Source: Pelodictyon luteolum
GTDB lineage: Bacteria; Bacteroidota; Chlorobiia; Chlorobiales; Chlorobiaceae
DNA length: 39,987 bases
Assembly: GCA_020721225.1 (NCBI GenBank)
Contig: DYNE01000021.1
Coordinates: forward strand, 1 to 39,987
Direction: 5' to 3'
Below, piece after piece: positions 28,971-39,987 of the stretch; the first letter of the stretch is position 1, and each line of letters starts with the position of its first letter. Both the position numbers and the translations under genes were made by a program. Under the pieces are notes generated by a model that saw only the letters and a list, made by a program, of their open reading frames with translations, did not search any database and had not been told where the DNA came from.

Positions 28971-28994
28971 CGTTATATTCTATTATACCTAACG
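28971..28994. promoter_or_regulatory. ModE-like operator 1 (CGTTAT-N12-CTAACG)
   Basis: This 24-bp dyad has one mismatch in the right arm and the same arm spacing as the ModE operator of E. coli modA as I remember it. It lies about 320 bp upstream of modD, so a long leader or a second promoter would be needed to act on that gene alone. Confidence 0.55.
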
Positions 28995-29311: not shown

Positions 29312-30160
29312 ATGATACTGTACCAATTGCCGGATTCGGATATCGAACGCTTCATCGAGGAAGATGTGCCATACGGCGACCTCACTACCTCGCTGCTCGG
29401 CATCGGTGAGCAGCAGGGAACCATTACCTTTACAAGCCGACACCATACCGTGCTTTCGTGTACCGAAGAGGCTGGCCGGGTGCTGGAAAAATGCGGAGCC
29501 ACGATAATCTCCCGCCTGCCGAGCGGTACGGAGGTAGAGGCAGGTACGGCTTTCCTTGCTGCGAGCGGGAGCGCGATGAGTCTGCATGCAGGATGGAAAG
29601 TCGCCATGAACCTTCTGGAGTACGCTTCGGGCATCGCCACCCGAACCGCAAATGTGGTTCGGGCCGCACGCTCGGCCAATCCGGGCATCTCGATCGTAAC
29701 CACCAGAAAATCATTTCCGGGAACGAAGAAGGTGGCCATCAAGGCCATCATGGCAGGAGGCGCGCTGCCCCACCGGCTCGGCATTTCTGAAACCATCCTC
29801 GTCTTCCGTCAGCATACCGCCTTCCTCGGCGGACTGGAACAGTTTCTCGATCAGCTTGCTCCGCTGAAAGCTCGTGCACCGGAAAACAAGGTCATCGTCG
29901 AGGCCGATACGACCGAAGAAGCCATGATAATCGCCTCTGCGGGAGCCGATGTCGTGCAGGTGGACAAGATGCCGCCCGATCAGCTCACAGTATTGGCCAG
30001 CGAAATTCATCGCAAGTTCCCGGGTGTCAGGGTCTCGGCCGCCGGCGGCATCAATGCCGGGAATGCCGCCCTCTATGCAGGCACAGGAGTGGATATACTG
30101 GTGCTCTCGTCTGTCTATTTCGGCAAACCTGCGGATATCGGTGTCGTCATACAACCCTAA
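29312..30160 (+). CDS. modD: ModD, quinolinate phosphoribosyltransferase-like molybdenum protein
   Basis: The 282-residue protein has the nicotinate-nucleotide pyrophosphorylase (NadC) fold: VPYGDLTTSLLGI, NLLEYASGIATRTANVVRAAR, VTTRKSFPGTKKVAIKAIMAGGALPHRLGISETIL, then the barrel strands ENKVIVEADTTEEA and VSAAGGINAGNAALYAGTGVDILVLSS. The His-Arg-Leu variant region and the mod context mark it as ModD, not a NAD-synthesis enzyme. ModD is linked to molybdate transport, but its reaction is unknown. There is no Shine-Dalgarno before the ATG. It is the first gene of a six-gene operon, 22 bases ahead of modA. Confidence 0.88.
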   Translation: MILYQLPDSDIERFIEEDVPYGDLTTSLLGIGEQQGTITFTSRHHTVLSCTEEAGRVLEKCGATIISRLPSGTEVEAGTAFLAASGSAMSLHAGWKVAMNLLEYASGIATRTANVVRAARSANPGISIVTTRKSFPGTKKVAIKAIMAGGALPHRLGISETILVFRQHTAFLGGLEQFLDQLAPLKARAPENKVIVEADTTEEAMIIASAGADVVQVDKMPPDQLTVLASEIHRKFPGVRVSAAGGINAGNAALYAGTGVDILVLSSVYFGKPADIGVVIQP

Positions 30161-30182: not shown

Positions 30183-30929
30183 ATGTTACAACCCATCAGA
30201 CGTTCAGCAATCCTGCTCATGCTCCTGTTGCTCGGAGCCATTCCGGCAATGGCCGGGGAGGTGAACCTCTCCGTGGCCGCAAGCCTTAAAGAGGTGATCA
30301 ACGAGCTCACGGCCAAGTATGAAAAAACTCATCCAGGCAGCGTATTTGTGAAAAATTACGGCGCATCAGGTGCTCTCGCCGGTCAGATCGAGAATGGCGC
30401 TCCCGCAGACCTGTTCATTTCGGCAAACACCAAATGGATGGACCACCTGAAAGGAAAAAAGCTCGTCGAGGAAACGAGTATCGGTACCTTTGCGAAAAAC
30501 ACCCTGGTTTTTACCGGCTCGACCGGAAAAAAGGTAACTGGCATGAAAGATCTTGCAAAGCTCGACAAGATCGGCATAGGAAGCCCGAAAAGCGTTCCTG
30601 CCGGGGAATACGCACAAACCGCCATCAAAAATGCAGGTATGGAACAGCAACTCCAGGGAAAGCTGGTGATGGCCAAGGATGTCCGGGAGTGCCTGATGTA
30701 TGCGGAACTGGGCGAAGTTGACGGCTCCTTCGTCTATCGTACCGACGCGCTTCAGGGCAATAAAACGAAACTGCTCTTCACCGTACCGCAGAAACTCTAT
30801 CCTGAAGTGGTTTATCCGATTGCCCTGACGGCATCAGCTGCAAAGAACAGCGATGCGAAAGGGTTCTTCACCTATCTTAAAGGTCGTGAAGCGAAATCGG
30901 TATTGAAAAAATACGGTTTCGTCCTGTAA
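30183..30929 (+). CDS. modA: molybdate-binding periplasmic protein ModA
   Basis: The 248-residue protein has a signal peptide (about 1-24, cleavage after AMA) and the ModA fold: NLSVAASLKEVINELTAKYEK, VKNYGASGALAGQIENGAPADLFISANTKWMDHL, IGIGSPKSVPAGEYAQTAI, and VDGSFVYRTDAL. It captures molybdate or tungstate in the periplasm and hands it to ModB. The serine-bearing SLKEV and GASGAL stretches correspond to oxyanion ligands. ATG 30183 is followed by the typical signal sequence; an in-frame upstream extension is not used. Confidence 0.93.
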   Translation: MLQPIRRSAILLMLLLLGAIPAMAGEVNLSVAASLKEVINELTAKYEKTHPGSVFVKNYGASGALAGQIENGAPADLFISANTKWMDHLKGKKLVEETSIGTFAKNTLVFTGSTGKKVTGMKDLAKLDKIGIGSPKSVPAGEYAQTAIKNAGMEQQLQGKLVMAKDVRECLMYAELGEVDGSFVYRTDALQGNKTKLLFTVPQKLYPEVVYPIALTASAAKNSDAKGFFTYLKGREAKSVLKKYGFVL

Positions 30930-30953: not shown

Positions 30954-31643
30954 ATGCTGTCGCTCACACCCGAAGACATACAGGCCATCCTGCTCTCGCT
31001 GAAGGTGGCGCTTACGGCAACGCTTCTATCGCTGCCGCTGGGGTTCGCAACGGCGTGGCTTATAGTGTTCCGCCCGCTCAGGGGAAAGATGCTGCTGGAA
31101 GTACTCGTGAACCTTCCGCTCACCCTCCCTCCTGTCGTTATCGGCTACTTTCTGCTGCTGCTGCTCGGCAGGAACGGATGGGCAGGAAAGTTCCTCGATG
31201 CATGGGGCATGCATCTTGTCTTTACCTGGAAAGCCGCCGTGATCGCCTCGGCCACCGTTGGATTCCCTCTTCTCGTTCGCTCGATCAGGCTCGGCATGGA
31301 GTCGATCGACCGACAGCTCATCCAGGCATCGCGCAGCCTTGGAGCCAGCTGGCTCGATACGCTCCTGACGGTCGTGCTGCCGCTCTCTGTACGGGGAATT
31401 CTTGCAGGTTCTTCGCTGATGTTCGCCCGAAGCCTCGGGGAGTTCGGGGCAACCATCATCGTTGCAGGTAATATTCCCGGCCTGACCCAGACCATTCCTC
31501 TCGCTATTTACGACTATGCAAGCTCTCCGTCGAGCACCATGATGGCGCTTTCGCTCTGCATCGTTTCCGTGGTGATTTCCGTTTCAGTACTTTTCATGCA
31601 TGAGATGCTGGGACGCAACCTCGAAAGGAAGGAATCGCTGTGA
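30954..31643 (+). CDS. modB: molybdate ABC transporter permease ModB
   Basis: The 229-residue inner-membrane protein has about five helices and the EAA coupling loop QASRSLGASWLDTLLTVVLPLSVRGILAG. Family strings LPLTLPPVVIGYFLL and ARSLGEFGATIIVAGNIPG are intact. It forms the channel dimer for molybdate. Its TGA overlaps the GTG start of modC1 as GTGA. Confidence 0.94.
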   Translation: MLSLTPEDIQAILLSLKVALTATLLSLPLGFATAWLIVFRPLRGKMLLEVLVNLPLTLPPVVIGYFLLLLLGRNGWAGKFLDAWGMHLVFTWKAAVIASATVGFPLLVRSIRLGMESIDRQLIQASRSLGASWLDTLLTVVLPLSVRGILAGSSLMFARSLGEFGATIIVAGNIPGLTQTIPLAIYDYASSPSSTMMALSLCIVSVVISVSVLFMHEMLGRNLERKESL

Positions 31644-32695
31644 AACTGCAGATCGATGTCATAAAAACCCAGGGAAACTTTACCCTTCAGGCCGCTGCTG
31701 CGGTGGAAGGGCAGCGAATCGGCATTTTTGGCCAATCGGGTTGCGGCAAATCAACGCTGGTACATCTTGTTTCCGGACTGTTGCAGCCCGACAGAGACGA
31801 AATCGCCATTGACGGCGAGACACTGTTCAGCAGCGCGAAAAACATTTCGCTTCCTCCCGAACAGCGCCGCATCGCCATCGTTTTCCAGCAGGCCATGCTC
31901 TTTCCGCACCTCGGCGTAAAGGCGAACCTTCTGTACGGCTACAAACGGTGCCGCACGGCAAACAGGCGTATCGACCCGGCAGCCATCATAGATGTGCTGC
32001 AGCTCGAACCGCTGCTGAAACGGGGGGTTAATCGTCTTTCCGGCGGCGAAAAACAGCGCGTGGCGTTGGGGCGGGCAGTTCTGTCAAACCCGCGCCTGCT
32101 CCTGATGGATGAACCGCTTTCGGCACTCGACGATGCCCTGCGCTTCCAGATCATTCCTTATCTGAAAAGCGTGAGTGCGGAGTTCGGCATACCCTATCTC
32201 TTCATTTCGCACTCGGTGCTTGAAATGCAGCTGATGACCGACCGGATTCTCGTCATGAAAGATGGAAAAGTCACCGAAGAGACCACCCCCGATCAGCTTG
32301 CCCGAAACAGGATGGCTGCAAGCCAGACCGGGTACCTCAACCTGCTCCACCTGCATCGCCCCTCCATGGAAAACGGACTCTACTCCTATCCCTGGGGCAC
32401 CGGGAACCTGCTTGTTTCGGATGGAATTGCAGAAAAGACATCGCTGTTCGAGCTCTCGTCGCGCGACATCATTCTCTTCAAACAGCACCCGGAAGCCATC
32501 AGCGCCCGCAATCTGCTTGAATGCACCGTTATGGAACTGTTCCGCTCGGATGGACGCGTCGGGGTCGTCCTCTCAACTTTCGGAGAAAAACTCATTGCCG
32601 AAATCGTACGTTCAGCTGCAGACGAACTCGATATCACCGAAGGGTCAACCATTTTCGCCGCCATCAAGGCTTCATCATTCAGGAGACTCGACTGA
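31640..32695 (+). CDS. modC: molybdate ABC transporter ATPase ModC (copy 1, with TOBE domain)
   Basis: The 351-residue ATPase starts with GTG overlapping the modB stop. It has Walker A GQSGCGKST (31-39), signature RLSGGEKQRVALGRA, Walker B LLLMDEPLSALDD and H-loop FISHS. From about residue 285 a TOBE/Mop domain follows (ARNLLECTVMELFRSDGRVGVVLSTFGEKLIAEIVRSAADELDI), which binds molybdate for feedback inhibition. This is the standard ModC layout and length. Confidence 0.93.
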   Translation: MKLQIDVIKTQGNFTLQAAAAVEGQRIGIFGQSGCGKSTLVHLVSGLLQPDRDEIAIDGETLFSSAKNISLPPEQRRIAIVFQQAMLFPHLGVKANLLYGYKRCRTANRRIDPAAIIDVLQLEPLLKRGVNRLSGGEKQRVALGRAVLSNPRLLLMDEPLSALDDALRFQIIPYLKSVSAEFGIPYLFISHSVLEMQLMTDRILVMKDGKVTEETTPDQLARNRMAASQTGYLNLLHLHRPSMENGLYSYPWGTGNLLVSDGIAEKTSLFELSSRDIILFKQHPEAISARNLLECTVMELFRSDGRVGVVLSTFGEKLIAEIVRSAADELDITEGSTIFAAIKASSFRRLD

Positions 32696-32698
32696 ACC

Positions 32699-33115
32699 AT
32701 GAACTGCTTTTCAGCAATTATCACCAGCATTGAAACCGATGAATCCGGCTCACTTTTTCTGCTTGAACTCGATGCATCAGGTCTTCAGCTTTCCATGCTG
32801 CTCTTCGATCTCAAACCGGCATTCACTGAAGGCTCGTCGGTAAACCTGCTTTTTAAAGAAACAGGAATGGCTATCGCCAGAAATCTCACTGGAGAAATCA
32901 GCCTCAGCAACAAATTTTCAGCCACTGTAACCGCCATACGGTCAGGCAACATCCTTGCCGATATCACACTCGCATCTCCTGCCGGAGAGTGCACGGTCAT
33001 CGTAACAATCCGAAGCATCCAGCGTATGAAACTCGACATTGGTGATTCCGTGACCGTACTGCTTCACGCAAGCCAGATATCCCTTGAAACTCCCCGGATG
33101 ATCACGGAAAACTGA
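32699..33115 (+). CDS. two-domain Mop/TOBE molybdate-binding protein (HTH-less ModE-like)
   Basis: The 138-residue protein consists only of two Mop-type domains, about residues 1-63 and 66-133. The junction LLFKETGMAIARNLTGEISLSNKFSATVTAI and the end VTVLLHASQISLE match the effector half of ModE, where FKET...A...LSGxxSxRN is typical. The N-terminal winged helix-turn-helix of ModE is absent, and the preceding sequence is the modC1 end, so this is not a truncated frame. It may store molybdate, act as a soluble sensor or pair with a separate DNA-binding partner. It sits 3 bases after modC1 and 7 before modC2. Confidence 0.82.
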   Translation: MNCFSAIITSIETDESGSLFLLELDASGLQLSMLLFDLKPAFTEGSSVNLLFKETGMAIARNLTGEISLSNKFSATVTAIRSGNILADITLASPAGECTVIVTIRSIQRMKLDIGDSVTVLLHASQISLETPRMITEN

Positions 33116-33122
33116 TGTACGA

Positions 33123-34031
33123 ATGATCCGTATTACCGTAGAGAAAAAACTTTCCGGGGCTGAAGGACCATTCACGCTCTCGATTGACCTGCAGATGAAG
33201 CCGCAATCGATCCTGACGCTCTACGGCAAGTCAGGCACCGGAAAAACCACGCTGCTTCGCATGCTGGCCGGTCTGGTAAAGCCAGACAGCGGGAGTATAG
33301 AGGTGAACGGTGAAATCTGGTTCGACAGCAGTTGCGGAGTATGCCTGCCGCCTCAGAAACGTCGGGTAGGCATGGTATTTCAGGACTACGCGCTCTTCCC
33401 CACCATGACGGTACGTGAGAACCTGCTCTTCGCCCAGGAGAAAAAAGAGCCCGGCAAAGTGGAAGAGATGCTCGAACTGACCGGTCTTCTCGCACTCCGC
33501 GACCGCAATCCCGGCTCGCTTTCGGGCGGTCAGCAGCAGCGGGTGGCGCTTGCTCGGGCAATTCTGCGCGCTCCCGACATTCTCCTGCTCGACGAACCGC
33601 TTTCGGCACTCGACCAGAAAACCCGAGGTCAGTTGCAGGACGAAATACTCAAGGTACACCATCGCTTTGGACTCTCCACGCTGCTTGTTTCACACGACAA
33701 GCAGGAGGTGTTCAAGCTCTCGGACAGCGTCGCCGTCATCAAAAACGGATGCATCACCAGAACAGGCACGCCTCACGATGTCTTTCTCGACCGGATCACC
33801 TCGAACAAGTTTTCGTTCGTCAGTACCATCCTCTCGATCCGCAAGGTTGATTGCATCTACCTTGCGGTAATCGGTGCCGGCAACGAGCTGGTCGAGGTTG
33901 TACTGTGCGAACGCGACGCTGCAAACCTGAAGCCGGGCGACGAGGTGCTCGTAGCTTCGAAAGCCTTCAACCCGATAGTCATGAAACTGAAGGAGGCGAC
34001 AGAGCCTGGAGATGAAACCCCGCCTATCTGA
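33123..34031 (+). CDS. second ModC-like ABC transporter ATPase
   Basis: The 302-residue ATPase has Walker A GKSGTGKTT (35-43), Q-loop FQDYALFPTMTVRENL, signature SLSGGQQQRVALARA, Walker B ILLLDEPLSALDQKT and H-loop LLVSHDKQE. The last 70 residues form one TOBE-like domain (DCIYLAVIGAGNELVEVVLCERDAANLKPGDEVLVASKAF). It is shorter than modC1 and clearly a different paralogue. The operon contains only one permease, so this ATPase may form a mixed dimer with ModC1 or serve a permease elsewhere, perhaps for tungstate or sulfate. Confidence 0.85.
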   Translation: MIRITVEKKLSGAEGPFTLSIDLQMKPQSILTLYGKSGTGKTTLLRMLAGLVKPDSGSIEVNGEIWFDSSCGVCLPPQKRRVGMVFQDYALFPTMTVRENLLFAQEKKEPGKVEEMLELTGLLALRDRNPGSLSGGQQQRVALARAILRAPDILLLDEPLSALDQKTRGQLQDEILKVHHRFGLSTLLVSHDKQEVFKLSDSVAVIKNGCITRTGTPHDVFLDRITSNKFSFVSTILSIRKVDCIYLAVIGAGNELVEVVLCERDAANLKPGDEVLVASKAFNPIVMKLKEATEPGDETPPI

Positions 34032-34066: not shown

Positions 34067-34468
34067 TTATTTACAGTTGCCTGGTGTCCTGAAAGAAGGA
34101 TCGTACTGATCCCAGAACCATTCCGAAACCAGTTTCAGATCATCCGGACTCATTGCCATGGCAGGCATGAGGCCGAATCGTTTGACGGCCGCAGGTTCAA
34201 GTTTCGAGTGCGATGCATCCGGCTTCTGCATGAACCTGACCATGTGTTCGACAGCTTTTTGTTTATCGGTAAAAGCCTCCCGATAGTGCAGGGCAATACC
34301 CAGCACCGGAGGAGCTGTTTTCGGAGGCGGTTTCATGGAGTGACATACACCGCAGTTGCGCAGGAAAATCTCTTCTCCACCGGTTTTCTCCTGCGATGCA
34401 TGGCCGGGAGATGAAATGCCCGAAACAAGAGCGACAAGAGTTAAGCAGGTTATAATATTGTTTTTCAT
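34067..34468 (-). CDS. small periplasmic c-type cytochrome
   Basis: The 133-residue protein has a signal peptide (about 1-24) and a single heme motif C39-G-V-C42-H43. A likely methionine ligand lies in GLMPAMAMS at about residues 99-107, giving a class I mono-heme cytochrome. It would carry electrons in the periplasm. It resembles the soluble small cytochromes of green sulfur bacteria but I cannot match it to c-555 or a Sox protein. It lies between modC2 (convergent, 35-bp gap) and the TonB receptor on its own strand, 119 bp downstream of the receptor stop. Confidence 0.85.
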   Translation of the reverse strand: MKNNIITCLTLVALVSGISSPGHASQEKTGGEEIFLRNCGVCHSMKPPPKTAPPVLGIALHYREAFTDKQKAVEHMVRFMQKPDASHSKLEPAAVKRFGLMPAMAMSPDDLKLVSEWFWDQYDPSFRTPGNCK

Positions 34469-34587: not shown

Positions 34588-36498
34588 TTAAAGATTGAAC
34601 GTCACACCGCCGTAGAGATAGGTGCCTGTCGCCCCCGATCCGCCGATATTGCCATAGACATCTGGCTCCACATCTAAAATATTGTCCACACCGAGGAAGA
34701 GGCCTGCAACGTCGCTGACCTGTCTGGATGCGTAAACGTGCACCAGCGTATATCCATCAGCTCGCTCTCCTCCCTCGATCCACTGTTTTCCGGCTGTGAC
34801 AACCCTGATATTTCCCCTGAAACCCGATTGGCTGCTGCCGTATGCAAGCTTGAAGGTATTGGAGACTTCAGGAACATAAAACAGGCTCTCCCCGGTGCTG
34901 CCGTCCTCGGTATCGATGAAGCTCAACTCGTCGGAAACCGTGAACCCGTACGGCAACTTCAGGCTTGCCGTAAGTTCGATACCTCTGGTCATTGCTTCGG
35001 ATATATTCTGTAATTCGTACGCAGGGATGTTGTTCTTTCCCTCCTTGACATAGCCGACGAACACTTCATGAATCATATCCCGCATATCGTTGCGGAATAC
35101 CGTGGCCCCTAAGGAGAATCCTTTCCAGGCAAGGTCGGCATCGACTTCGTACGACCGGGAACGCTCAGCGTCGAGATCGGCACTGGCATAGACGATCTTC
35201 TTTTTTGTATAAAGTGATCCGGTGTACAGTTCATACAGGGTCGGGGCACGGAATCCCTCTCCATAAGAGCCTCTCAAACGCAACAGGTCGCTGACCCTGT
35301 ACGAGAGAGCGGCCTTCGGGCTTATTGCCGAACCGAAATCGGAGTGGTTGTCGTATCTTGCTCCAAGCACGATACCGGCCCGCTCGCCGATCTGCACTTC
35401 GTCCTGAATAAATGCCCCGACATTCCGGGCATCATGCTCAACCTCTCCGTCGGCACGTTCGTCATGCCGGTAATCCATCCCCGCGGTAACGCGATGAATT
35501 CCGGCCGTTTTACCTGTCCAGCGGGCTTCGGCCTGCCTGCTTGTCTGCTCAAGTTTTGTCGTGGATGCAGTTCCGCCGGCAACAGGAATCATGTCAGAAG
35601 TCCAGTCATACGAAGATTGCCAGGCACGAAGATGCAATGACGACTCCTGCCCTGTTGCAGCATCGAAGCCAACATAGGCCGAAACCCTTTCGGCATCGAC
35701 GTAACGCTCGAAGTCGCCGCCTGTCTGGGTGCGGTACCCTTCAAGCTCGGTGTCGGCATAGTTGAATCCGAAAGAGAGTGATGCGGAGGGTGACAAATCA
35801 TAGGTCAGTGCAGTCAGCGCCGAACCGAGAATCCGGTCGTCTCCGTCGGTCATCAGATCGGACTCATCCCGGTCATACCTGTCCTTGTTGTTATAGCCTC
35901 CTGAAACCACATACCCGAGGTTTCCGGCCCTGCCGCTCATCCAGCCGTCGGTCACGATCGTTGCCGCGTCGCCATGACGGCTCTCTCCTCCGCGCAGAGT
36001 CGCTCCTGCACGAAACGTCTCCGAAGGTTTCCTGGTGATGATATTGATGACGCCGGCAACGGCGTCACTTCCATACAGCGCGGAAGCTGAACCGCGCACC
36101 ACTTCGACTCGCTCGATCATACCGGCAGGAATTTCGGAGAGATCGACAAAATCCTGAAACCCGGAGGTAAGGCGCATGCCGTCGATGAGTACCAGCGTAT
36201 GCCTGCTAAGCCCCCTCATCCGCGCGACGCTCTGCCGGCCGCTGGCCGGTTCGAGACTCACGCTCTGCACCTCGGTCAGCACATCCGCAACGGTTTTCGC
36301 GCCACTCTCGGCTATCTCTGCCTTGCTGATCACTTCAATCGCTGCAGGAATCTGTGATACCTGCGTTTCGCTGAGCGTAGCCGTTACAACGACCTCTCCG
36401 GTTTCGTAATATCCCGGCTCTGCCGTTGCGGAAGCAGGAATCAGAAAACTGCCGATACAACCAGCCAGTACCGGTATTCGTAAAATCTTATTTTTCAT
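34588..36498 (-). CDS. TonB-dependent outer-membrane receptor
   Basis: This 636-residue receptor starts at ATG 36498 (signal peptide ending ASATA). In the plug domain GEVVVTATLSETQVSQIPAAIEVIS is a TonB-box-like start, followed by RGLSRHTLVLIDGMRL and GSASALYGSDAVAGVINIITRKP. A 22-strand barrel follows, ending in YLYGGVTFNL. It imports a scarce ligand across the outer membrane, powered by TonB. General resemblance is to BtuB/FepA-type receptors. A perfect ModE-like operator 260 bp upstream and nearby mod genes suggest a molybdate or tungstate complex as cargo, which is inference. Confidence 0.9.
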   Translation of the reverse strand: MKNKILRIPVLAGCIGSFLIPASATAEPGYYETGEVVVTATLSETQVSQIPAAIEVISKAEIAESGAKTVADVLTEVQSVSLEPASGRQSVARMRGLSRHTLVLIDGMRLTSGFQDFVDLSEIPAGMIERVEVVRGSASALYGSDAVAGVINIITRKPSETFRAGATLRGGESRHGDAATIVTDGWMSGRAGNLGYVVSGGYNNKDRYDRDESDLMTDGDDRILGSALTALTYDLSPSASLSFGFNYADTELEGYRTQTGGDFERYVDAERVSAYVGFDAATGQESSLHLRAWQSSYDWTSDMIPVAGGTASTTKLEQTSRQAEARWTGKTAGIHRVTAGMDYRHDERADGEVEHDARNVGAFIQDEVQIGERAGIVLGARYDNHSDFGSAISPKAALSYRVSDLLRLRGSYGEGFRAPTLYELYTGSLYTKKKIVYASADLDAERSRSYEVDADLAWKGFSLGATVFRNDMRDMIHEVFVGYVKEGKNNIPAYELQNISEAMTRGIELTASLKLPYGFTVSDELSFIDTEDGSTGESLFYVPEVSNTFKLAYGSSQSGFRGNIRVVTAGKQWIEGGERADGYTLVHVYASRQVSDVAGLFLGVDNILDVEPDVYGNIGGSGATGTYLYGGVTFNL

Positions 36499-36601: not shown

Positions 36602-36742
36602 TTAAGAAATTACTGAACGCGCCATGAGTGATGAAGCCGCTGGCGTGTCGCAGCCATGGCCGTAGCGATACGTGATGGGGGATATCGTAAAAACGATGAA
36701 ATCAAGAGCGAGGAAACAGATCAGTACAACATGTTTTTTCAT
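36602..36742 (-). CDS. possible small membrane peptide between ModE-like site and TonB receptor
   Basis: A 46-codon ORF begins MKKHVVLICFLALDFIVF, that is, a basic start then a hydrophobic stretch as in a signal anchor. It continues with a short polar tail holding YRYGHGCD. Its ATG is 15 bases from the operator at 36758-36781, the same geometry as the other perfect site. ATG 36751 is a second possible start. No Shine-Dalgarno is visible and I know no family, so it may equally be untranslated leader of the receptor mRNA. Confidence 0.35.
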   Translation of the reverse strand: MKKHVVLICFLALDFIVFTISPITYRYGHGCDTPAASSLMARSVIS

Positions 36743-36757
36743 TGATAGCATGGTTTT

Positions 36758-36781
36758 CGTTATAACAAAAAAAATATAACG
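36758..36781. promoter_or_regulatory. ModE-like operator 3 (perfect CGTTAT-N12-ATAACG)
   Basis: Both 6-bp arms are perfect and the 12-bp centre is A-rich. It lies between the SUMT-like gene stop (36796) and the start of the small ORF/TonB receptor unit on the minus strand, so the receptor is the likely target. Confidence 0.65.
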
Positions 36782-36795
36782 CTGACAAAAAAAAC

Positions 36796-37602
36796 TCAGG
36801 CGCCAGAACACCTGGACAACACTTCTGCCGGAGGCCATTTTTCAAGCGGCAGATTTCTGATGGCAAGATGTTGACCGACAAAATAAACGACAGGTTCCCT
36901 GAGCTTTCCCGATGCCCTGAGTGTACTGGCATCTCCAATAGTCGCCACTGCGTATGCCTCGTCGGGCCATCCCGATTTCGACACGGCAACGATAGGCATT
37001 GCGGCTGAAACTCCCTCTTCAAGGAAAGCTTGTACTATGCCCTCAAGATTTCCTGTCGCCATATAGAGAACAATGGCAGACCCATGCCTGAGCAGCTTGG
37101 CCGCATCACGGACAAGAGCGAAATTATCGACAATTACATCGGCGATAAGGCAGGTAACCGAATTGCTCTGGTATTTTTCGCTCAGCGGCAGCGCATAGGT
37201 GCATGCCGCTGCCGCTCCAGCAGTAACCCCGGGAACGACCTCGTAAGGTATATGCTGCCGCTCAAGTGCCCGACAATCGTCATTGGCGCCGCCAAACATC
37301 ATGGGATCTCCTGCTCTCAACCGCACTACCCGGAGCCCCTCGTTATAATATGCTTCGATAAGCTCAACCATCCGGGAGTTCCTTGCAGACACTCCTGCCT
37401 GAACGCTCTCTTTTTCTCGCTCCACAAACCGGATGGTAGCTGTTATCGACGCGACAGAAAGCGCCGATTCCGCAGTATGGCAATCGTAAAGAATGACATC
37501 CGCATTCCTGATAATCCGGGCCGCCCTGACGGTCAACAGATCCGGACCACCCGGACCGGTACCGACAATGAAAACCGGATAAAAGACAAGTTCATCGATC
37601 AT
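36796..37602 (-). CDS. SUMT/CobA-like tetrapyrrole methyltransferase, divergent
   Basis: The 268-residue protein has the SAM-dependent tetrapyrrole methylase fold: FIVGTGPGGPDLLTVRAARII, ADVILYD, LRVVRLRAGDPMMFGG, PYEVVPGVTAGAAAACTYALPLSEK and AIVLYMATGNLEGIV. Closest in layout to uroporphyrinogen-III C-methyltransferase, it differs at conserved points: GPGGPD where GPGDP is usual, YDCHTAE where YDRLV is usual, and RLRAGDP where RLKGGDP is usual. It may have a different tetrapyrrole or another substrate. ATG 37602 lies 20 bases from a perfect ModE-like operator, so expression is probably tied to molybdate. Confidence 0.8.
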   Translation of the reverse strand: MIDELVFYPVFIVGTGPGGPDLLTVRAARIIRNADVILYDCHTAESALSVASITATIRFVEREKESVQAGVSARNSRMVELIEAYYNEGLRVVRLRAGDPMMFGGANDDCRALERQHIPYEVVPGVTAGAAAACTYALPLSEKYQSNSVTCLIADVIVDNFALVRDAAKLLRHGSAIVLYMATGNLEGIVQAFLEEGVSAAMPIVAVSKSGWPDEAYAVATIGDASTLRASGKLREPVVYFVGQHLAIRNLPLEKWPPAEVLSRCSGA

Positions 37603-37622
37603 TTTTCACTATCAACCCTTTT

Positions 37623-37646
37623 CGTTATATAATAAAGGAAATAACG
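37623..37646. promoter_or_regulatory. ModE-like operator 4 (perfect CGTTAT-N12-ATAACG)
   Basis: This is a perfect 6+6-bp dyad with the 12-bp spacing, 20 bases upstream of the SUMT-like ATG on the minus strand and 135 bp from the divergent LysR gene. Molybdate-bound regulator would be expected to repress the methyltransferase. Confidence 0.65.
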
Positions 37647-37780: not shown

Positions 37781-38665
37781 ATGTTTGACTATCGCCTGAA
37801 GGTTTTCGACGCGGTCGCCCGGCGACTGAGCTTTACAAAAGCCGCAGAAGAGTTGTGTATCACCCAGCCAGCCGTCACGAAACACATCAAGGAACTTGAA
37901 AAACATTTCAGGGCGCAACTCTTCGAGCGCAAAGGTAACGGAGTAGCCCTGACCGAAGGAGGTCTTCTGATACTGAAACATACCGGATTGCTTCGGGAGA
38001 TAACCCGACAACTCGAGTATGAGATTCACAGGCTCCATGACGCACATCAAGGACTGCTGAAACTGGGAGCGAGCACGACAGTTGCCCAGTACGTACTGCC
38101 GCCACTGCTTGCAAAATTTCACCGGGTTTACCATGACGTGAATTTGCAGATGCTTACAGCCAATACCGAGCAGGTAGAACAGGCTCTGATCGGCAAAAAA
38201 ATCGAACTGGGCATCATCGAGGGGGATTCGAAGCGAAAGGACATCATCTATACCCCGCTTGCCGACGATGATATCGTACTGGTAAGCGGAGCAAAAAATC
38301 CCCGCGCAAAAAAAGAGGAAATCAGGATCGAAGATCTTGTCGCTATCCCCCTGCTGTTAAGGGAGCCTGGTTCCGGAACGCTTGAGGTCATTACCCATGC
38401 CCTTAAAAGCTCGAACCTGCGGATAGCGGATCTTGCCGTGGAAATGTATCTCGGAAGTTCGGAAGCCATAAAATCCTATCTGCTGCATTCGCAATGTATG
38501 GCTTTCATTTCACGACATGCCATCATGCATGAAGTTGCAAATGGATTGCTGAAAGTCGTAACGATCAGAAAATTCTCGATCCGCCGAAGGTTCTTCTTCA
38601 TCACACTGGAGGGTCAGATCGGAGGACTTCCGGAAGTGTTCATGCGATTTGCCTCCGACCATTAG
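37781..38665 (+). CDS. LysR-family transcriptional regulator (YeiE-like)
   Basis: The 294-residue regulator has an N-terminal winged HTH (LKVFDAVARRLSFTKAAEELCITQPAVTKHIKELEKHF, residues 6-43), a linker helix and a type 2 periplasmic-binding-fold effector domain (LKLGASTTVAQYVLPPLLAKFH onward). The neighbouring yeiH-type gene follows in the same direction after 211 bp, as in E. coli yeiE-yeiH, so it probably controls that transporter. The upstream region is strongly AT-rich with no visible Shine-Dalgarno. The effector ligand is not readable from sequence; CysB/CbbR-like anion sensing is possible. Confidence 0.88.
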   Translation: MFDYRLKVFDAVARRLSFTKAAEELCITQPAVTKHIKELEKHFRAQLFERKGNGVALTEGGLLILKHTGLLREITRQLEYEIHRLHDAHQGLLKLGASTTVAQYVLPPLLAKFHRVYHDVNLQMLTANTEQVEQALIGKKIELGIIEGDSKRKDIIYTPLADDDIVLVSGAKNPRAKKEEIRIEDLVAIPLLLREPGSGTLEVITHALKSSNLRIADLAVEMYLGSSEAIKSYLLHSQCMAFISRHAIMHEVANGLLKVVTIRKFSIRRRFFFITLEGQIGGLPEVFMRFASDH

Positions 38666-38876
38666 AGCGATCTGCTTCCCGCTCCATTCTGAACTGCAGT
38701 CCTGTGTTTACAGGGCTCCCATAACCTGCCGTTATGCCGGATCACGTAATACGATTGGCCTGATAACATTTTTTCGGCAATCTTGACCCATAACCTCAAG
38801 TAACGCAAAACAGATGCAATGAGACACTGTGAACATGGAAAGACCCAGGGAATCATTAACGCATAAAAGGAGCCTT
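38666..38876. other. gap between lysR and yeiH-like gene
   Basis: No gene is visible. The region presumably carries the promoter and the regulator binding site for the transporter. A short stem near 38700-38720 (CCTG...CAGG) is too weak to call. Confidence 0.3.
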
Positions 38877-39987
38877 ATGGATAACAACGGCAACAACGAA
38901 AACATGGCTACCGGCAATGCTACCCATCGTATCGAAACGGAATTACCAACCGGGGAACTGATCCGCGAAGCTGAACGGTGCGGATTCCGATGCCAGGCAA
39001 AAACAGCGAAACATACCATTGATTCATTGTTTCCGGGGGTTCTGGCGTCCATCACCGTAGCGGCTGCAGCAACATTTCTTTCCGATCATTACGGCGCACC
39101 GACCATGCTTTTCGCACTCCTGATCGGCATGGCTTTTCGTTTTCTTTCCGAAGATAAAGGAAAGGCACTTCCGGGCATCCAGTTCACTTCAAAAACCATT
39201 CTGCGTATCGGAGTAGCTCTTCTCGGCATGCGCATTACTTTCGCAGAGATTCAGCAACTTGGTATCAAACCGATCTCCATCGTCATATGTTCGGTTCTGC
39301 TGACCATCCTGTTCGGTCTTTTTCTCTCAAAATTCATGGGTCGCGGCAAACGGTTCGGCGTACTTACCGGGGGAAGTGTCGGTATCTGCGGAGCCTCGGC
39401 AGCACTTGCAATTGCAGCCATACTGCCCAAAGATGAATACATCGAACGCAACACTATTTTCACGGTCATCAGCGTCACCGCCCTGAGCACTCTTGCAATG
39501 ATCCTGTACCCGGTAATTGCAGTTCAGCTTGGGCTCGATCCGCAGGCATCCGGAATTTTCCTCGGGGGCACCATTCATGATGTCGCCCAGGTTGTCGGTG
39601 CCGGATATTCCATGTCGGACGAGACGGGAGATATCGCTACGGTTATCAAGCTGCTCAGGGTAGCCATGCTTGTTCCTGTAGTCTTCACTCTCTCGCTGAT
39701 ATTTCACAGCAGGAACAACACAGAAGGAAGCGAGGCAAAGAGTTTTTTCCTGCCTCCGTTCATCATCTTTTTCATTCTGCTGGTAGGTCTGAACAGCACA
39801 GGAATCGTATCAGAGCCGGTACGCACCATTATCGGAGATATCTCTCGCTGGTGCCTGGTTGCGGCAATCGGCGCTCTTGGTATGAAAACATCCCTGAAAT
39901 CACTTTTTCAGGTCGGCTGGAAACCTGTTTCGATTAGGGGTTTGGAAAATACTGATATACCTATTATAATGTTTTCATATCGCAACG
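38877..39987 (+). CDS. YeiH-family (UPF0324) membrane transporter, 3' end disrupted or off-window
   Basis: The frame opens at ATG 38877 behind an AAGGAG ribosome site and runs without a stop to the window edge (370 codons). It has a polar N-terminus of about 55 residues, then about ten hydrophobic segments. Family motifs are ILRIGVALLGMRITFAEIQ, TGGSVGICGASAALAIAAILP, IFLGGTIHDVAQVVGAGY and GALGMKTSLKSLFQVGWKP. YeiH proteins are predicted anion (sulfate/sulfonate-type) exporters. After GWKPVSI the sequence no longer reads as the expected final hydrophobic helix: it becomes RGLENTDIPIIMFSYRN. Hence the 3' end may be interrupted by an insertion at about 39936. Confidence 0.82.
   Translation, partial: MDNNGNNENMATGNATHRIETELPTGELIREAERCGFRCQAKTAKHTIDSLFPGVLASITVAAAATFLSDHYGAPTMLFALLIGMAFRFLSEDKGKALPGIQFTSKTILRIGVALLGMRITFAEIQQLGIKPISIVICSVLLTILFGLFLSKFMGRGKRFGVLTGGSVGICGASAALAIAAILPKDEYIERNTIFTVISVTALSTLAMILYPVIAVQLGLDPQASGIFLGGTIHDVAQVVGAGYSMSDETGDIATVIKLLRVAMLVPVVFTLSLIFHSRNNTEGSEAKSFFLPPFIIFFILLVGLNSTGIVSEPVRTIIGDISRWCLVAAIGALGMKTSLKSLFQVGWKPVSIRGLENTDIPIIMFSYRN

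Follow-up and report, generated by a model that had tools for sequence, protein, structure and literature searches.

A Divergent SUMT-like Methylase Flanked by ModE-like Boxes and Its Probable Place in a Molybdenum-Responsive Acquisition Module of Green Sulfur Bacteria

In a 39,987 bp stretch of Pelodictyon luteolum DNA (the whole of which is referred to here as the window), a gene encoding a divergent methylase of the SUMT type lies between two perfect ModE-like dyads, beside a gene for a TonB-dependent receptor (Table 1). The methylase very probably belongs to a molybdenum-responsive acquisition module, and independent sequence evidence of several kinds indicates both its membership of the module and its assignment to the regulon. 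The fuller reading, according to which the protein represents a distinct, conserved SUMT-like type within a ModE-controlled module for Mo acquisition and carries out a ligand-making step there, is plausible but tentative.

Green sulfur bacteria fix N2 in sulfide-rich water, where access to Mo is likely to be difficult, and no description of the passage of Mo across their outer membrane was found in the literature searched. A methylase found together with TonB receptors and Mo importers, with ModE-type boxes ahead of them, could mean either that a chemical step of Mo acquisition has been missing from view or that the SUMT superfamily performs a new reaction.

Table 1. Genes and ModE-like boxes around the methylase in the window.
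Feature	Position	Strand	Remark
modD	29312..30160	+	TIGR01334 252.5 bits, cut-off 178.85
modA-like periplasmic molybdate-binding protein	30183..30929	+	ORF, between modD and modB; ATG chosen inside longer ORF
modB	30954..31643	+	TIGR02141 240.6 bits, cut-off 182.6
modC	31640..32695	+	TIGR02142 424.9 bits, cut-off 285.05
TOBE/Mop-like molybdate-binding protein	32699..33115	+	TOBE 28 bits, over cut-off; Mop 35.4, under 55
Second ModC-like ABC ATPase	33123..34031	+	family-model matches
Small c-type cytochrome-like protein, probable neighbour of receptor unit	34067..34468	-	Pfam cytochrome c just under cut-off
TonB-dependent outer-membrane receptor, CirA/BtuB-like	34588..36498	-	Plug and barrel domains; start 36498 assumed
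SUMT-like (PF00590) methyltransferase, divergent clade	36796..37602	-	ORF, 268 aa
Divergent LysR-type regulator	37781..38665	+	conserved neighbour in L160, L161, L163
ModE-like box, 1 mismatch	28971..28994	.	upstream of modD-modABC
ModE-like box, perfect dyad CGTTATAACAAAAAAAATATAACG	36758..36781	.	between methylase stop and TonB-receptor gene
ModE-like box, perfect dyad CGTTATATAATAAAGGAAATAACG	37623..37646	.	20 bases upstream of methylase start codon

The methylase and its clade

The initial annotation of this DNA described a protein that keeps the methylase fold while changing several conserved positions, and both parts of that description hold. The ORF contains all three of the motifs named there (GPGGPD, YDCHTAE and RLRAGDP), and the Pfam TP_methylase model (PF00590) matches residues 10–225, in effect the whole length, with 143.9 bits (cut-off, 27.8). 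The motifs differ in their spread: the Cys of YDC is fixed across the clade described below (19/19 aligned rows), GPGGPD recurs in some members only, and the Arg of RLRAGDP is found in the window protein alone among the clade members aligned. The best-scoring family model, cobA_cysG (TIGR01469), gives 163.7 bits, which is under its curated cut-off of 185. The AlphaFold model (pLDDT, 87.5; pTM, 0.84) has CbiF and SUMT as its nearest folds, with 1cbf (CbiF) as the best Foldseek match and a TM score of 0.71–0.79 against SUMT 1s4d. Although the fold is thus shared with CbiF/CobM, the methylase reaches only 135.8 bits with the corresponding model (TIGR01465; cut-off, 259.65), and the genome carries a separate TP-methylase cluster on contig C30. 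The dN/dS value is about 0.16 between the window gene and its orthologue in genome G092, which rules out a decaying gene, and lies between 0.15 and 0.35 among the orthologues, as expected for a working protein under purifying selection.

A tree of 72 rows inferred with IQ-TREE sets the methylase orthologues on a branch of their own (support, 100/100), the stem of which measures 1.34 changes per column; the cobalamin SUMTs of Chlorobiales lie outside it. The proteins of Bacteroides ihuae and Bacteroidales Barb4 join this branch, outside the SUMTs. With the SUMT model, clade members from three other loci score 154.8 (L035), 160.7 (L048) and 138.7 bits (L138), as against 226–327 for canonical enzymes. 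Elsewhere in the window genome, two ordinary SUMTs are encoded, each scoring about 250 bits. The initial annotation had suggested comparing the protein with CobA, CysG, CbiF and CobM proteins in a tree and looking for a second, canonical cobA, and had allowed that it might fall inside the SUMTs and be the only cobA of the genome; it does neither.

The clade keeps the equivalents of Asp47, Phe106 and Met184 (numbering of P. denitrificans CobA), and replaces Leu49, Arg108, Glu111 and Arg146; position 48 is Cys in 19/19 rows. By our own reading of the FGRGGEE and THR motifs, CobA Arg108, Glu111 and Arg146 correspond to R111, E114 and R149 of NirE. At these three positions nearly all of the 19 clade rows have Gly (or a gap or Ser), Asp and Lys, whereas Arg, Glu and Arg are found in 93 of the 94 rows outside the clade. 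The equivalent of R111 is Gly in 16 of the 19 members and Arg in none. In NirE, the R111K mutant loses 94% of its activity and E114Q loses 84% (PMC4731766). It is thus likely, as far as the sequences indicate, that the methylase does not act on uroporphyrinogen III; the window protein is probably an active methyltransferase with a substrate other than that of SUMT.

ModE-like boxes and the putative regulon

A perfect ModE-like dyad close to the methylase start codon had been noted before, and CGTTATATAATAAAGGAAATAACG is indeed found at that place. The dyad between the methylase and the receptor gene, absent from the initial annotation, is the second perfect one flanking the methylase. Without mismatches, CGTTAT-N12-ATAACG occurs at only two places in the 2.62-Mb genome, both of them beside the methylase. 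The 24-base core of the window dyads equals the published, E. coli-derived ModE consensus ATCGCTATATANNNNNNTATATAACGAT in length and spacing (PMC2700814). With up to two mismatches allowed, seven matches were observed in the window versus 1.06 expected from shuffled sequences. Across the genome, the dyad with up to one mismatch was found at eight places versus four for a reversed control pattern, so that single-mismatch matches are weak when taken alone, and those on contigs C30, C56 and C78 were not trusted. The ModE reading of the boxes rests on the perfect pair and on conservation in relatives.

In the first four relatives inspected, the methylase and the TonB-receptor gene each have a box of their own ahead of them, with no more than one mismatch. 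A weight matrix was built from 14 sites and used at a threshold of 12.5 bits, which corresponds to 0.056 matches per 10 kb of shuffled sequence. Scanning with this matrix located boxes at both positions, with scores of 21–33 bits, in 10 out of 10 Chlorobiales orthologue loci (nine genomes) outside the training set. In all 14 further Chlorobiales orthologue loci, one ModE-like box stands ahead of the methylase and a second one separates it from the receptor gene. The same scan found no ModE-like box at four cobA-paralogue loci, nor any near the methylase in the B. ihuae and Barb4 loci; the case for Mo control, built on these predicted sites, thus covers Chlorobiales. Within that order, the conserved position of the boxes supports the earlier proposal of a molybdate-type switch. 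In the orthologues measured, 12–49 bases separate the end of the box from the likely methylase start codon, a distance that fits repression. Neither the window nor the searched Chlorobiales islands contained a cobalamin riboswitch; the one in the B. ihuae locus (2342–2528) is on the opposite strand, ahead of another operon, and was discarded as a control element of the methylase.

The genome encodes ModE itself (TIGR00637, 103.9 bits; cut-off, 98.5), a full protein with two Mop domains. The modE gene, on contig C86 (L017, L022), is located downstream of a TonB-receptor gene and of modA-like and modB-like genes, and adjoins nifB and a nifN-like gene. At this locus (L017:1003-3231 and L022), the gene for a second TonB receptor is preceded by two single-mismatch ModE-like boxes and followed by the modA-like, modB-like and modE genes and by a radical-SAM gene that by its appearance resembles moaA. 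Boxes at recognised Mo genes, namely modD-modABC and the modE locus, support the dyads as putative ModE operators. Compared with the known ModE regulon (modABC, moa and others), the operators agree with the E. coli-derived consensus in length, spacing and half-sites, modE is present, and a box stands before modD-modABC; the predicted targets in this genome differ in that they include a TP-methylase and TonB receptors. A study of ModE sites from 2003 reportedly covered green sulfur bacteria. In the literature searched, no paper was found on a ModE target with a TP-methylase or TonB receptor, or on a link between TonB, ModE and such a methylase.

On the reverse strand, a 49-codon ORF (36602-36751; its product begins MLSMKKHVVLICFLALDF) starts right after the second ModE box and stops ahead of the TonB-receptor gene. 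In locus L160, a different short ORF with a product beginning MKK follows the corresponding box. These short ORFs may be leftovers of the receptor gene found in relatives.

Gene neighbourhood and distribution among relatives

The window receptor has CirA and BtuB as its nearest solved structures, and its orthologue in G092 is 80% identical. A homologue of the small cytochrome-like protein is found at the same place in L160 and L161. On the other side of the methylase, the divergent LysR-type regulator is accompanied by a PF03601 (YeiH-like) membrane protein (37781-39986), with homologues by the methylase in L160 and L163. The TOBE/Mop-like protein and the second ModC-like ATPase (32699-34031) come after modABC.

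In most Chlorobiales relatives, the gene order is a divergent gene for a di-Mop protein, the methylase, a TonB receptor, a FecCD permease, an ATPase, a class I methyltransferase and a Peripla_BP_2 protein, and then an SBP_bac_6-like protein, a CobW/HypB-like GTPase, an ABC ATPase, a receptor of the window type and a small Oxidored_molyb protein. These operons therefore hold two methyltransferases, one SUMT-like and one of class I. The B. ihuae locus consists of permease, ATPase, methylase, receptor and binding protein. The permease is nearest to HI1471 (MolB) of Haemophilus influenzae both in the relatives (244.9 bits versus about 137 for BtuC) and in B. ihuae (259.9 versus 133 bits), and the binding proteins of both match HI1472 (MolA). 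HI1471 and HI1472, of the molybdate/tungstate importer MolABC, are among the nearest solved structures of the relatives' permease and binding protein; unlike the H. influenzae system, the relatives' version is linked to a TonB receptor and a methylase.

In the window, modABC takes the place of the MolABC-type permease and binding protein, and the locus lacks the class I methyltransferase and the GTPase found in relatives. The two full-length FecCD genes of the genome are on other contigs, with no ModE box near them, and no orthologue of the usual partner receptor was found in the genome. The importer and the usual receptor are likewise missing from the G092 locus, and in both genomes the window-type receptor adjoins the methylase instead. 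In genome G071 (L162:4742-6366), the Mo island is reduced: the methylase frame is shortened, and between it and the window-type receptor there remain two joined fragments, one from the usual receptor and one from the last ABC ATPase. Judging from this layout, the island resembles an intermediate stage of the deletion that would have given the window arrangement.

A profile search of 98 Chlorobiales genomes placed the close methylase group in 14, one of which has two loci; among 394 sampled genomes of the phylum there was one more, which is probably B. ihuae itself. Scanning named genomes yielded B. ihuae, Bacteroidales Barb4 and three Chlorobiaceae records, the sequences of which are the same as those of three genomes in the Chlorobiales set. 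The usual partner receptor, fragments counted, is present in 28 of the 98 genomes, with the methylase in 12 and alone in 16; two genomes have the methylase but not this receptor. The co-occurrence with a TonB receptor that the initial annotation had proposed to look for is thus seen for the usual type in 12 of the 14 methylase genomes, and the other two, the window genome among them, have a different receptor there. Fisher tests of this co-occurrence ignore shared ancestry and are indicative only. Strict dependence on one TonB receptor can be set aside, given that the window genome and G092 are without the usual type and that many genomes have the receptor alone.

In genome G107 (L201:7009-7367), a gene for the usual type of TonB receptor is immediately preceded by a methylase relic, which has a ModE-like box on either side. 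The relic joins the first ~47 and the last ~30 residues, with the middle missing. Together with the 16 receptor-only genomes, it marks the methylase as an accessory that is useful, yet dispensable to the receptor.

Proposed role and alternative explanations

The genomes of relatives suggest that the methylase aids Mo supply under scarcity, probably through action on a small molecule. When molybdate is plentiful, Mo-loaded ModE would sit on the predicted box, a few tens of bases ahead of the start codon, blocking transcription; when Mo is scarce, the methylase, the receptor and the importer would be produced. With SAM, the methylase would then methylate something other than uroporphyrinogen III, and the likeliest product would be a small-molecule ligand, built or modified as a molybdophore and possibly derived from a tetrapyrrole, which the TonB receptors would import together with molybdate or tungstate. 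That the methylase performs the ligand-making step is possible rather than probable. It is favoured by the linkage to the receptor and by the pattern of producers and non-producers: the receptor is commoner than the methylase, and a relic persists in G107, as expected for a product that can be shared. The 16 of 28 receptor genomes that are without the methylase indicate that the ligand would not be essential for the receptor. Against ligand making, none of the genes in the islands examined was recognised as an exporter for a secreted ligand, and the window genome has a different TonB receptor in place of the usual partner. The wider proposal is that a TP-methylase family, shared by green sulfur bacteria and some Bacteroidales, would make or modify a dedicated small-molecule molybdate/tungstate carrier taken up by TonB receptors and MolABC-type importers. 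It is rather unlikely to hold; if it were true, the wider spread of the receptor would separate producers from non-producers.

Instead of making a ligand for uptake, the methylase could act inside the cell on an imported metal complex, methylating its ligand so that Mo is released; anaerobic haem degradation, which proceeds by methyl transfer, follows a comparable logic. In favour are the import character of the operon, the resemblance of its receptors to CirA and BtuB, the lack of a recognised exporter, and the protein itself, which begins directly with the methylase domain and should be cytoplasmic. However, many genomes retain the receptor but not the methylase, and release in those genomes could not require the methylase; the chance of this explanation is judged to be low. 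About equally improbable is a substrate other than a tetrapyrrole (a peptide, a thiol or another small molecule), or a role in which the protein binds SAM without catalysis and serves as a partner of the uptake system. RsmI is a PF00590 enzyme with a non-tetrapyrrole substrate. The same family includes fungal peptide N-methylases, likewise with a non-tetrapyrrole substrate (PMC6108569). The loss of the residues that contact uroporphyrinogen and the class I methyltransferase alongside the methylase in relatives point in this direction, but the nearest relatives of the methylase all act on tetrapyrroles, and the kept Asp47, Phe106 and Met184 equivalents, together with purifying selection, argue for catalysis.

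Two explanations that keep the protein within tetrapyrrole metabolism proper appear less probable still. As a functional SUMT, it would supply extra precorrin-2 for siroheme or B12 under Mo limitation. With SUMTs (CobA, CysG-A, NirE) it shares the PF00590 fold, SAM-loop motifs and the three retained residues, and cobA_cysG is its best family model; it differs from them in the score under the cut-off, where the two canonical copies of the genome reach about 250 bits, in the separate clade with its long stem, and in the changed equivalents of NirE R111, E114 and R149, the first of which is never Arg. Moreover, it is linked to Mo uptake genes, and siroheme and B12 genes are absent from the locus; an ordinary siroheme/B12 SUMT is accordingly disfavoured by cut-off, tree, residues and canonical copies alike. 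The production of a different modified tetrapyrrole cofactor, one standing in for a Mo enzyme under low Mo, would suit the TP-methylase fold and a ModE-type control, but the conserved neighbourhood consists of uptake genes, with no candidate apoenzyme or further tetrapyrrole gene.

The Mo islands of Chlorobiales also contain a conserved trio of SBP_bac_6-like protein, HypB/UreG-like GTPase and ABC ATPase (L035:15095-16890, L043:2887-3882). Its SBP_bac_6-like member has no NCBIfam family name and is found in methylase-free genomes as well. A small protein with an Oxidored_molyb domain repeatedly follows TonB receptors with ModE-like boxes (L043:6032-6577, L200:9370-9936).
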